DNA of 64,000 bases from Arthrobacter agilis (lineage in GTDB: Bacteria; Actinomycetota; Actinomycetes; Actinomycetales; Micrococcaceae), in contig NZ_VHIM01000003.1 in the NCBI RefSeq assembly GCF_006494655.1, positions 310,001 through 374,000 of the forward strand, given 5' to 3'. Each line of letters opens with the position of its first letter. Within the stretch, counting starts at the first letter, position 1. Both the position numbers and the translations under genes were made by a program. This document shows, piece by piece, positions 45,854 to 48,722 of this stretch. The notes under the pieces were generated by a model. That model made no database searches. It worked only from the letters and a program-made list of their open reading frames with translations, and was not told where the DNA came from.

Positions 45854-46822
45854 TCACACCCAGCCGGCATCGCGGGCCTTCAGCGCGGCCTGGAATCTGC
45901 TGTCGGCGCGCAGCGTCTCGAGCATCCAGGCGATGTGCCGACGACACGTCCGCACGTTGATGTCGAGGCGGCGTGCGATCGACTCGTCGGACAGGCCGTT
46001 CGCGAGTCCCTGGAGAATGGAGCGCTGCAGGCTGCTGAGTGGGCTTTCCACCTGCACCGGCGCGAGGAAGGACTCGCTGATCTCCCAGGCGATCTCGAAC
46101 AGCTGCGTGAAGATGTTGATGAGGCTGTGGTCCCTGATGACCAGGGCAGCCTTGTCCTCCCGGGACAGTTGGCGCCCCACCAGCGCCAGTTTCTCGTCGA
46201 AGATGAGCATGCGCAGCGGGATGAACGGCAGGACGCCGAACTCGCCGCCACCCTGGGCGATGGCTTCGACGGCCTTGCGTGTGGGGACGTGGTCGCGCGT
46301 GCTCGTGTCGTACAGCGTCCGGCGTCGCACGCCTTTCTCGAGCAGTTCGAGGTCCTTCCGGACGCTCTCCTCGTGGACGTCCGCCGTCGACCCCTGGCCC
46401 GGCTGGGCGATGTAGACCTTCTCCGCGACGTCGCGGCCGTAGTCGATGAGCACACGGTGGATCAGGTGCGGGTCCTCGAGCGTTTCCACCGACGTACTCG
46501 CCAGCACGTGTTTCCGGGCGTCGAGGAACGTGGGAAGGAGGCTCGACAGTTCACGCCGCTGGCTGCTGATGCGTGCCTTGAGGTCCTGCATCTCGCGCTC
46601 GTCGGCATCCACGAGGTCCGCGAGGGCTACGTCGGGTGACACCGCGACGAGGCCGTCGTCGCTGCCGGCCTGCGGGCTGAGGAGGCGGCGGGCGCGCAGC
46701 TCGCCGACGGCGTCGTCGATGCGCCTGAGCGTCAAGCCCAGTGCCTCCGAGACCTCGGAGCGCGTCCAGCCCGGATGGCCCACGGCGTAGCGGTAGACCT
46801 CGAGCGACGTCGCATCCAGCAT
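45854..46822 (-). CDS. TrmB-like plus LuxR-type HTH regulator
   Basis: 322 residues from ATG 46822 with AGGGAG six bases upstream. Residues 1-60 form a winged helix like TrmB/MarR (TRSEVSEALGLTLRRIDDAVGELRARRLL). The middle part (about 80-250) has the weak phospholipase-D-like/TrmB sensor pattern without catalytic HxK. The C-terminal about 60 residues are a LuxR HTH (LQGLANGLSDESIARRLDINVRTCRRHI). In actinobacteria such regulators often lie beside tiny secreted peptide genes, as here: the divergent peptide gene starts 370 bp away. It may sense that peptide, or a product, and control the adjacent cassette. Longer in-frame starts have no support. Confidence 0.85.
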   Translation of the reverse strand: MLDATSLEVYRYAVGHPGWTRSEVSEALGLTLRRIDDAVGELRARRLLSPQAGSDDGLVAVSPDVALADLVDADEREMQDLKARISSQRRELSSLLPTFLDARKHVLASTSVETLEDPHLIHRVLIDYGRDVAEKVYIAQPGQGSTADVHEESVRKDLELLEKGVRRRTLYDTSTRDHVPTRKAVEAIAQGGGEFGVLPFIPLRMLIFDEKLALVGRQLSREDKAALVIRDHSLINIFTQLFEIAWEISESFLAPVQVESPLSSLQRSILQGLANGLSDESIARRLDINVRTCRRHIAWMLETLRADSRFQAALKARDAGWV

Positions 46823-47192
46823 GAACTCTCCCTGTCCGCCTACCCGCCGGCAGCCGACGAGGTGGTGAAAAACATGACATGTCCAGTTAATGACACCCAG
46901 GACGGCCTGGCAATTCTCCTCAGCAGGATTGCCGTCATCTCCGTGCAATTCCGCGGATCTACCGGCCCGGGAACCCGATCCGGTCGGACCGCCGCCTCCT
47001 GCCTCGTCCGCTCCGAGTCCTCTACGCGTCATGTCCGCAAACGGCCACTCGTACAGCTGGACACTACCTGTACCAGGCGGACATTCTGATGGAGCCGGTC
47101 ACCAGGAATCCACGGACTCCGACGGACACGGTCGCTGCGGAACAGCAGTGTGGGCAGCTCGACCTCTTGGAGACGGGCACGGAAGGATCCTC
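46823..47192. promoter_or_regulatory. Divergent control region with nested inverted repeats
   Basis: 370 bp between the regulator and the peptide gene without a supportable gene. At 46876-46883 is an 8-bp palindrome GACATGTC, 54 bp from the regulator start. At 47031-47084, an outer inverted repeat (ATGTCCGC at 47031-47038, GCGGACAT at 47077-47084) encloses an inner one (GTACAG at 47051-47056, CTGTAC at 47068-47073, 11-base spacer). The inner pair has lux-box-like size. No consensus -35/-10 was convincing. The arrangement suggests dimer or tetramer binding by the LuxR-type protein. Confidence 0.6.
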
Positions 47193-47333
47193 ATGAAGAA
47201 GGTACTCGGCACAACTGCAGGACTGCTGATCCTTGTAGGAACTGTTGCGCCGGCAGGTCACTCCGTCAGTGCCGCGAGCTGGGACTGGCCTAAGGCGTCG
47301 GTCTCGGCGAGCAGCTGGGACTGGCCCAAGTAA
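47193..47333 (+). CDS. Small secreted peptide with duplicated SWDWPK motif
   Basis: 46 residues, ATG with GGAAGG six bases upstream. A signal peptide is clear: MKK, a hydrophobic core about residues 8-19, and a signal-peptidase-like site VSA after residue 27. The remaining 19 residues contain two near-identical blocks SVSA-A-SWDWPK (24-34) and SVSA-S-SWDWPK (36-46), joined by one Ala; the second SVSA could be a second cleavage site. Release would give ASWDWPK and SSWDWPK. The codons of the two SWDWPK blocks differ by one base, so the duplication is recent or selected. No precursor family recognised. It heads an operon with a LanB-type domain protein. Confidence 0.8.
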   Translation: MKKVLGTTAGLLILVGTVAPAGHSVSAASWDWPKASVSASSWDWPK

Positions 47334-47338
47334 GACAC

Positions 47339-47367
47339 GCGGCGCCGGACTAGAGCCCGGACGCCGC
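47339..47367. terminator. Hairpin (partial terminator) after the peptide gene
   Basis: A 10-bp stem with a single-A bulge: GCGGCG (47339-47344) with CGCCGC (47362-47367) and CCGG with CCGG inside, 8-base loop. It starts 6 bases after the peptide stop and lies before the next gene. No T tract. It could reduce read-through so that peptide is made in excess of the enzyme. Confidence 0.5.
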
Positions 47368-47418
47368 ATTCAGAGCCCGCCCCAGCGGGGGTGATCACAG
47401 ACCCTGAAGGAGAGTGCC

Positions 47419-48390
47419 ATGAGTCAGCTGACAGCCGTGCGAACCGCCTCACGGACGGTCGTCAGCACTCAGTGGTGGCATCTCTCCCTCTCCACGGGTG
47501 GCTTCGATGTAGCGGACGGCATCGTCGAAGAGCTGATCACCCCGCTGGTGGCGCAGGCGCAGGCGCTCGGCGCCAAACGCTGGTACTTCACCCGGGGCGA
47601 GGATGCCTCCACGGGGATCGTCAGCCAGATCCGACTCAGCATCCATGCACACCCCCGTGTTCTCGAGCGGCTCCGCGGTTTCGAGCGGGTCCTCGAGGCC
47701 GGCAGTGCAACGGCCCGCCCGCTCCTGGCAGTGCGCCAGCACTACACCGCGCCGGCCAGCAACACCTACTACTCCGGTGGGTCGGAGATGGCCGACCCCC
47801 AGCTCGAGTCGAACCTGGTGAAATACGGTGGAGTCGAGGGACTGCACCTCGCGGAAGAAGTCTTCGAACTCAGCTCCGAACTCGCCCTCTGGGCCAACCA
47901 GCGATTCCCCCGCATGCAGAGCCGCTCCGCGCTCGGAGCCCTGGTGCTGTTCGACGCGGCCCAGGGCATGATGCGCGGACCGCGCTCGGCCGGCTGGCCC
48001 GATCGCCGTCGTCTGACCTGGGACCTCTACTGGGACAGCCACCTGAGGACCTGCACGGCCGACGTCGGCCCCCGTGCTGCGAGCGTGCGCGAGGCGATGA
48101 CGGCCCAGGTGGCCTCGAAGGCCACTGGTTTCCACGCCCTCATGGCCGCCACGGCCTCGGAATCGGCCGTCCACAACTGGCGACGGCGCTGGTACCGCGC
48201 GCTCGACACCTACCTCTACCGTGCGGACAAGGTCAGGGTCAGTCGCAGTGCACAGCATCTGACGGTGTACCAGGCGCACATGGCCCTCAACCGTCTCGGA
48301 TTCGTGGCGCGCGAGGAAGCGGCACTCGGGCTGTACGCCCGGACCTGGACACCCGGGGCGGACCATACCGCGACGCGGCACCCGCTGTAG
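47419..48390 (+). CDS. Stand-alone LanB elimination-domain (thiopeptide-type bacteriocin biosynthesis) protein
   Basis: 323 residues, ATG with AAGGAG six bases upstream. The protein resembles the C-terminal glutamate-elimination domain of class I lantibiotic dehydratases: WYFTRGEDAS at 55-64 corresponds to the WFxRYxD start, IRLSIHAHP to HLRLRxxG, and KYGGVEGLHLAEEVFELSSELAL at 135 onward to the RYGG....AExxFxxDS motif. No tRNA-dependent glutamylation domain (LanB N-terminus), cyclase, protease or exporter is nearby. The same fold also serves as [4+2] cyclase in thiopeptides. The role here may be modification or binding of the upstream peptide. The second most informative support is its gene neighbour, a tiny Trp/Ser-rich peptide. 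Confidence 0.75.
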   Translation: MSQLTAVRTASRTVVSTQWWHLSLSTGGFDVADGIVEELITPLVAQAQALGAKRWYFTRGEDASTGIVSQIRLSIHAHPRVLERLRGFERVLEAGSATARPLLAVRQHYTAPASNTYYSGGSEMADPQLESNLVKYGGVEGLHLAEEVFELSSELALWANQRFPRMQSRSALGALVLFDAAQGMMRGPRSAGWPDRRRLTWDLYWDSHLRTCTADVGPRAASVREAMTAQVASKATGFHALMAATASESAVHNWRRRWYRALDTYLYRADKVRVSRSAQHLTVYQAHMALNRLGFVAREEAALGLYARTWTPGADHTATRHPL

Positions 48391-48437
48391 TGCGAGGACG
48401 AAGCTTCCCGAGCAACCGACGAGCGAAGGACCCCATC

Positions 48438-48629
48438 ATGAATCCCAGGAATACCCTCGTACTGGCCACGGACCCCGCCGATCTCTCCGAGGCCCTCGGA
48501 TGCTCGTCGGAGGCGGTCGCGTCGATGCAGGACAGCGGCGTGCTCGAGCCGCACGGACAGCTCTGGGAGATCGGCGCGGCACGGGACTACCTGCGCGACG
48601 CCGCCTGGGCGGACAGCCTCTGGCACTGA
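48438..48629 (+). CDS. 63-residue HTH/excisionase-like protein
   Basis: 63 residues, ATG with GAAGGA seven bases upstream, 47 bp after the LanB-domain gene. The region LSEALGCSSEAVASMQDSGVLEPHGQLWEIGAARDYLRDA reads like a MerR/excisionase winged helix: helix, turn, helix, then a short wing and a last helix (core residues LGCSSEAVASMQDSG). It has no repeats like the peptide. It could be a DNA-binding accessory, or a recognition element for the enzyme; unusual C-terminus WADSLWH. No homologue recognised. Confidence 0.65.
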   Translation: MNPRNTLVLATDPADLSEALGCSSEAVASMQDSGVLEPHGQLWEIGAARDYLRDAAWADSLWH

Positions 48630-48661: not shown

Positions 48662-48699
48662 CCGATAGCAGTGAAGGACGCCGATAGCAGAGAAGGACG
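48662..48699 (+). repeat. 19-bp tandem direct repeat before the terminator
   Basis: CCGATAGCAGTGAAGGACG (48662-48680) is followed at once by the same 19 bases with one change (T to A) at 48681-48699. The second copy ends inside the left arm of the terminator, so the first copy could in principle pair with the right arm instead. Confidence 0.75.
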
Positions 48700-48722
48700 C
48701 CGGCGCGCTGCCCGGCGTCCTT
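48693..48722. terminator. Bidirectional intrinsic terminator of the peptide cassette
   Basis: Perfect 11-bp stem AAGGACGCCGG (48693-48703) with CCGGCGTCCTT (48712-48722), 8-base loop, followed by CTT. On both strands the stem ends in T-rich sequence. It lies between the plus-strand cassette and the convergent FMN reductase. Confidence 0.85.

Follow-up and report, generated by a model that had tools for sequence, protein, structure and literature searches.

A 64,000-nucleotide stretch of the Arthrobacter agilis genome (contig NZ_VHIM01000003.1, positions 310,001 to 374,000 of the forward strand; hereafter the window) contains a four-gene cassette that is real and conserved. It encodes a TrmB-LuxR type regulator, a precursor of very short peptides with a Trp-x-Trp (W-x-W) core, a solo protein of the LanB elimination-domain family (LanB_C) and a 63-residue protein. 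The reading we favour, at a probability of about 0.45, is that the cassette is a peptide module which regulates itself and descends from a split-LanB cluster for a ribosomally synthesised and post-translationally modified peptide (RiPP), with the solo LanB_C protein as a binder or modifier of the peptide. It is built on computed gene content, co-occurrence of the genes, selection at the level of the peptide, operator-like sites and the lack of a detectable LanB_N half in the window's genome (48 contigs, 3.24 Mb).

The regulator gene (322 residues, 45854..46822) lies on the minus strand, divergent from the other cassette genes. On the plus strand follow the precursor gene (46 residues, 47193..47333, MKKVLGTTAGLLILVGTVAPAGHSVSAASWDWPKASVSASSWDWPK), the gene for the solo Lant_dehydr_C, or LanB elimination-domain, protein (323 residues, 47419..48390) and the gene for the small protein (48438..48629). 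The precursor consists of a Sec-like signal (about 47193-47273) and two SWDWPK cores (47277-47294 and 47313-47330). An earlier note on this DNA had claimed these four open reading frames (ORFs), and all are present at these positions. It had also closed the cassette with a strong terminator. A strong G+C-rich hairpin is indeed predicted by folding at about 48693-48722 (48693..48722, no strand assigned), ahead of a convergent FMN reductase gene, but a terminator scan found no U-tract terminator there.

Close orthologues of the regulator (E <= 7.1e-105) occur in 81 of 395 Micrococcaceae genomes, distributed over five genera. The neighbourhoods of all 81 were read (75 adjoining the regulator, five displaced from it, and that of G099), and every one of these genomes also holds a solo LanB_C gene with a W-x-W peptide ORF immediately upstream. 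The joint conservation of the neighbours, on which the earlier note had staked its proposal, therefore holds throughout. The gap between peptide and enzyme, from stop codon through start codon, is 82-154 bases in the 80 loci measured, and pairwise distances between enzymes correlate with those between regulators (r 0.77 over 26 loci). In the five displaced cases (L063, L065, L172-L174 with L178-L182) the regulator is about 9-12 kb away, with the peptide, enzyme, small protein and two operator-like sites still together; these genomes were at first read as having neither peptide nor enzyme. Next to the regulator in L063 and L065 are, by eye, apparent other metabolic genes.

A reverse search of the same 395 genomes with a profile of the enzyme was positive in 87 (E <= 1e-10), namely the 81 and six others. 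Two of the six (G254 and G300) have diverged regulators and short ORFs, MEATFSQILRSGGIYDWPTVA and MTASAARRIWAWPESWPILGRK; G264 and G251 carry split-LanB genes, G543 is similar to G251 by eye, and G482 gives only a weak match to the profile. Enzyme matches were found in 5 of 248 genomes at the level of the order and in 20 of 394 at that of the class. Among five strong matches outside the order, the one whose surroundings were read (L134) has a Lant_dehydr_N gene just upstream of the enzyme. No enzyme of this family was found in the stretches fetched around regulators from other families (L139-L149), and no related enzyme was found on plasmids or viral contigs. Ten enzyme loci come from named genomes, nine of them Arthrobacter (including A. 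agilis, A. bussei and A. cheniae) and one titled Vibrio cholerae. The latter record, strain 35D (L013 and G579/L027), carries an Arthrobacter cassette with a regulator 89% identical, and is therefore mislabelled or contaminated. A search of the open-access literature found no paper on this cassette. The accessible text of an Arthrobacter LuxR survey (PMC9659744) contains no TrmB, and the accessible part of PMC3466318 makes no mention of it.

Could so short an ORF recur ahead of the enzyme by chance? An ORF containing W[DEG]W and preceded by a ribosome-binding-like stretch is present in 79 of 80 real upstream regions versus 11 of 4000 shuffles. As a natural control, the identical rule applied upstream of other LanB_C matches gave none in 33, a set that includes two split LanBs and one fragment; at L197, one TTG-start ORF with WDW lies 607 bases upstream, outside the rule. 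The codons point in the same direction. In all 38 genomes of the window's genus, pairwise comparison of the last six codons of the precursor gives 980 synonymous and 416 non-synonymous differences, and of the preceding six codons 581 and 3123, the pairs in both counts not being independent. The last six residues of these 38 precursors are SWDWPK in 33 and NWEWPK in four; the remaining one, L034, is broken, its second core lost and its end reading SQPQAGSPVVPG. Among the 15 closest loci, which are exactly those with regulators at least 88% identical, the two cores show 165 synonymous differences and no non-synonymous ones, a zero that is partly built in because these precursors were picked for two intact SWDWPK copies. 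Judged from the comparison of the 38 genomes, the peptide core is under purifying selection.

The precursors vary widely around this core. Counted per locus in 80 of the 81 genomes, they comprise 63 distinct sequences, and the first core is SWDWPK in 34, SWDWF in 12, AWDW in nine, SWEWF in eight, VWDWI in six and NWEWPK in four, with VWDWPQ and VWDWL twice each and IWDW, IWDWKN and IWGWPQ once each. Of 121 core copies, 120 have Asp or Glu between the two Trp residues. Most precursors hold one core (50) or two (23); three are found in five precursors, four in one and six in one. At one end of the range stand Sec-signal propeptides with one to six cores, and at the other bare ORFs such as MKSWDWF, a gene of seven codons present at twelve loci, once with an additional Met; the two such loci inspected have a G-rich ribosome-binding-like stretch ahead of the ATG. 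Many bare forms are 7-9 residues long, and in one genus the ORFs run from about 7 to 22 residues. By a hydropathy rule, 51 of the 80 precursors have a Sec-like signal; the 29 without one are 28 from a single genus and L042. In the distinct precursors, all 41 internal cores have an Ala one or two residues ahead of them, which might meet the need for a processing site. Cys appears in just two of the 80 precursors, both times within the signal part, and in no core. The AWDW, IWDW and VWDW cores contain neither Ser nor Thr.

The 323-residue protein matches Pfam Lant_dehydr_C with 58.7 bits (cut-off 24.4; E 1.3e-15) over positions 1-248 of the 255 in the model. Against TIGR03891 (thiopeptide-type bacteriocin biosynthesis protein) it scores 36.8 bits, under the curated cut-off of 48.45, and all 28 aligned relatives match this model at E <= 0.001. 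A profile of the enzyme family aligns with MibB (5ehk) across 47 columns at E 0.0041. The relation to the LanB elimination domain, which the earlier note had wanted confirmed by structure search, is supported by sequence profiles; the structure model, with a mean predicted local distance difference test (pLDDT) score of 44.8, is too low in quality for a fold search.

The tRNA-dependent half of LanB, said in the earlier note to be missing, was found neither in the window's genome by profile search nor among the neighbouring ORFs scanned in the window. Because PF04738 missed the known split LanBs of G264, G956 and G023, a profile made from three split LanB N-halves (A7; G264, G251 and G956) was used instead. 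It was positive in all four control genomes, three of which supplied its own rows, so that only G023 is independent (E 5.4e-120). In 48 non-control genomes, consisting of G254, G300 and 46 of the 81, it gave a single match (G477, E 3.5e-18), located elsewhere in that genome. LanB_N thus went undetected in nearly all genomes tested, where the enzyme must work without the glutamylation half of LanB.

Residues with a putative role in elimination were compared by motif. The His of HMxxNR is kept in 23 of 25 sequences, and the residue ahead of YGG is Lys both in the window's enzyme and in all eight split LanBs compared. The RxR motif is intact in 8 of 8 split LanBs compared; aligned with them, the window's enzyme has Ser in place of the second Arg. 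According to the portions of the NisB literature available to us, H961 is essential and R786 and R826 are implicated (PMC4341554, PMC12241602); RxR would map onto NisB R784/R786. Loss of its second Arg fits a "repurposed" LanB fold as a predicted role. In one genus (g5; L183-L207), several genomes have extra solo Lant_dehydr_C paralogues, four of them within about 12 kb in L195. None of these extra paralogues has a W[DEG]W ORF upstream, and a search of seven g5 genomes with profile A7 detected no LanB_N.

The regulator has a LuxR-type helix-turn-helix (HTH) at its C-terminus (residues 261-315; Pfam GerE, E 4.9e-9), and its family profile aligns with TrmBL2 over columns 13-251 (E 5.8e-5), in agreement with the TrmB-like N-terminus and LuxR C-terminus described in the earlier note. 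There is no TPR model among its Pfam matches. Between the regulator and peptide genes lie two candidate 20-bp operator-like sites on the plus strand, A (46876..46895, GACATGTCCAGTTAATGACA) and B (47028..47047, GTCATGTCCGCAAACGGCCA), the latter 152 bp from A and upstream of the peptide gene. Their pattern is conserved across loci, with a spacing of about 118-152 bp where both sites fit; variant sites that escaped the first pattern occur at some loci, chiefly in one genus. A pattern written to fit A and B alike, with one mismatch allowed, matches the window's genome at these two places, and its reversed control at one. The site A pattern was searched in 20 of the 81 genomes: 18 have one hit, at the cassette, and two, both from the genus with variant sites, have none, while the reversed control gave seven hits in the same 20. 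As the operator-like sites were found only at the cassette, direct control seems to be confined to it.

The small protein, which had been called HTH-like, bears this label weakly, the resemblance being to a winged HTH: HTH_17 matches 3 of 23 relatives (best E 0.0064), and a model with a mean pLDDT of 67 has no fold match at E <= 0.001. Its C-terminus has an invariant RDxAWAxxxW pattern; as RDAAWADxLW, this part is better conserved than the HTH-like part, even in the diverged copy at L015. The small protein might be a partner or a substrate of the enzyme.

From this arrangement we infer that the regulator binds sites A and B, that the precursor is processed, that the enzyme acts on the peptide, that the regulator senses the peptide or its product, and that the whole is of RiPP ancestry. 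In such a module the TrmB-LuxR regulator would bind the two candidate operators upstream of the peptide gene and would control the peptide, the enzyme and the small protein. The active unit would be very short, a peptide around an x-Trp-Asp/Glu-Trp core. Propeptides, mostly with a Sec signal and with between one and six cores, would be cleaved to yield it; in one genus it would be produced nearly bare. Binding or modification by the solo LanB_C-like protein would involve no glutamyl-tRNA, and the peptide, once matured, would probably act back on the regulator.

Several observations weigh against this proposal. The AWDW, IWDW and VWDW cores have no Ser, which excludes a Ser chemistry shared by every core. 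Among the 81 genomes, at least four (G293, G557, G561 and G579) have the enzyme in pieces or in a partial frame. Because the second Arg of RxR is lost, the enzyme may be non-catalytic. Finally, solo LanB_C paralogues without a W[DEG]W ORF indicate that some enzymes of this family can do without the peptide.

RiPP ancestry is suggested by a locus from another Micrococcaceae genus (L150, in G264), in which a split LanB_N/LanB_C gene pair stands together with an M50 peptidase and a related regulator of the TrmB-LuxR type (36%). This arrangement points to such a cluster as the origin of regulator and enzyme, the W-x-W peptide having taken the place of the usual precursor, and L150 is possibly close to the ancestral state. 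The diverged cassette of G254 (L152) adjoins apparent FMN reductase, alanine dehydrogenase and PucR-type genes as in the window, by eye, which speaks for vertical inheritance. The cassette resembles split class I LanB systems (L134, L150, L197, and the GodF/GodG type as far as described in the accessible part of PMC5303826) in having an enzyme of the LanB C-half family, and the L150 cluster contains a related regulator. It differs from them in that no LanB_N was found in the window's genome and the RxR motif is altered. Unlike lanthipeptide precursors, its cores lack Cys, and not all of them have Ser or Thr. No LanC was seen among the window neighbours scanned, although no search was aimed at LanC.

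An alternative that does without modification is a plain pheromone: Sec would secrete the propeptide, and its product SWDWPK, after cleavage, would be taken back up through an oligopeptide permease and bind the TrmB-LuxR regulator in the manner of RRNPP systems, with the LanB_C protein an accessory. This is the best of the alternatives, although we consider it doubtful. The Sec-like signals in 51 of 80 precursors and the dedicated regulator adjoining the peptide gene are what it predicts, and the multi-copy cores with Ala ahead of each internal copy recall the tandem Phr propeptides described in the accessible part of PMC11343458. RRNPP(A) quorum sensing, the subject of that source and of PMC10075063, pairs a Sec-signal propeptide bearing a short C-terminal or repeated core with an adjoining gene for a cytosolic regulator, an arrangement that the cassette shares where its precursor has a Sec-like signal. 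In contrast to those systems, its regulator is TrmB-LuxR and not TPR, a RiPP-type enzyme and a 63-residue protein are its regular neighbours, one of its genera lacks the signal, and its hosts are Micrococcaceae and not Bacillota. Against the pheromone stand the 29 of 80 precursors that lack a signal, many of them bare ORFs of 7-9 residues, the enzyme gene, which is present as regularly as the regulator, and the operator-like sites, which were found at the cassette only, so that neither a wider regulon nor output genes are visible in the genomes scanned.

Another precedent for a short Trp peptide is ComX, a modified pheromone matured by a dedicated enzyme. The cassette likewise pairs a short Trp peptide with a dedicated enzyme; unlike ComX, it has no prenyltransferase or histidine kinase, and its regulator is a DNA-binding protein of cytosolic type. 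A gene for a mere heptapeptide beside a modifying enzyme is known from microcin C7, and MKSWDWF would be a seven-residue gene in the same position; the cassette enzyme is of an unrelated family, the core is Trp-rich, and no exporter gene is seen in the window's cassette. The enzyme belongs to Lant_dehydr_C, and the cassette lacks defining features of lanthipeptide systems and of RRNPP; we therefore file it under neither.

The precursors with signal peptides favour export and signalling, whereas the bare forms and the narrow distribution of the operators point to a site of action within the cell, at or close to the enzyme. A self-regulated module with an enzyme acting on the peptide ranks ahead of the plain pheromone. 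The proposal in the earlier note of a new short-peptide signal built on a repurposed LanB fold is supported in part, by the conserved neighbours, the selection on the core and the solo LanB_C protein, and the ORF with a Sec-like signal and two SWDWPK cores is present as described; the secreted-signal role stays hypothetical. The comparison extends that note, in that the tiny peptides form a conserved family with the solo LanB_C protein as a regular partner.

The region between peptide and enzyme raises the question whether the ORF is instead a cis-acting leader, either an attenuator or a ribosome-arrest element, through which Trp or translation would be sensed and the enzyme controlled, with no role for the peptide once free. 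A stem-loop (47339..47367, plus strand) directly follows the peptide stop codon; over homologous stretches its mean folding z-score is -1.52 (76 distinct stretches) versus -0.06 before the enzyme (68 distinct stretches). Many RiPP operons have a stem-loop between precursor and enzyme, and this one also speaks for the favoured module. Ahead of the ribosome-binding site of the enzyme lies a block (47378..47397, plus strand, CGCCCCAGCGGGGGTGATCA) conserved in 36 aligned loci of 80, with the consensus CGCCCCAGCGGnGGTnAyCA. It shows no covariation and is not apparent in the loci of g88 and g91 that were inspected; in the window's genome it has one exact match and one with two mismatches, and its reversed control has one. 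The best Rfam match in the region has an E value of 1, under every gathering score. These elements, the two nearby Trp codons in each core and the very short forms of the ORF would suit a leader. However, residues other than Trp are conserved with varying codons (all four Pro codons are used in the core), up to six core copies occur, the last core ends 0 to 14 residues from the stop, no U-tract terminator was found in the window, and 51 of 80 precursors have Sec-like signals. A leader is therefore an improbable explanation.

It is quite improbable that the cassette is a weapon or immunity module, with a bacteriocin-like W-x-W peptide and an enzyme or small protein that matures it or protects the producer. 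Short Trp-rich peptides that could be secreted (51 of 80 precursors), a solo RiPP-type enzyme and a dedicated regulator could serve such a purpose. No exporter gene, however, is seen among the neighbouring genes read in the window. Moreover, the core is nearly invariant and not diversifying, bare forms exist, and the PADLOC match is confined to the HTH region of the regulator. That the cassette is what is left of an ordinary class I lanthipeptide cluster, decaying and without function, is very improbable: a LanB_C without LanB_N, the altered RxR motif and broken copies (the L034 peptide and the four enzymes named above) would fit, but all 81 genomes, from five genera, have both the peptide ORF and the enzyme gene, and the core is under selection.

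The favoured module can be taken one step further, to a new peptide system in Actinomycetota in which a conserved Trp-x-Trp ligand is bound or altered by a tRNA-independent LanB_C relic and the TrmB-LuxR protein is its intracellular receptor, closing a feedback loop. We offer this full form tentatively, as one with the odds against it. Very short conserved W-x-W peptides, a lone half of a RiPP enzyme and a dedicated regulator recur together in 81 of 395 Micrococcaceae genomes. Genes of seven codons fall under the usual limits of annotation, and similar systems may therefore have been missed; because the synthesis of cores of 4-7 residues costs little, the idea can be tested directly. If the reading is true, MKSWDWF would be among the shortest natural peptide genes, the LanB elimination domain would be working without its tRNA-dependent partner, and peptide control would be added to a group of bacteria with few known peptide signals.

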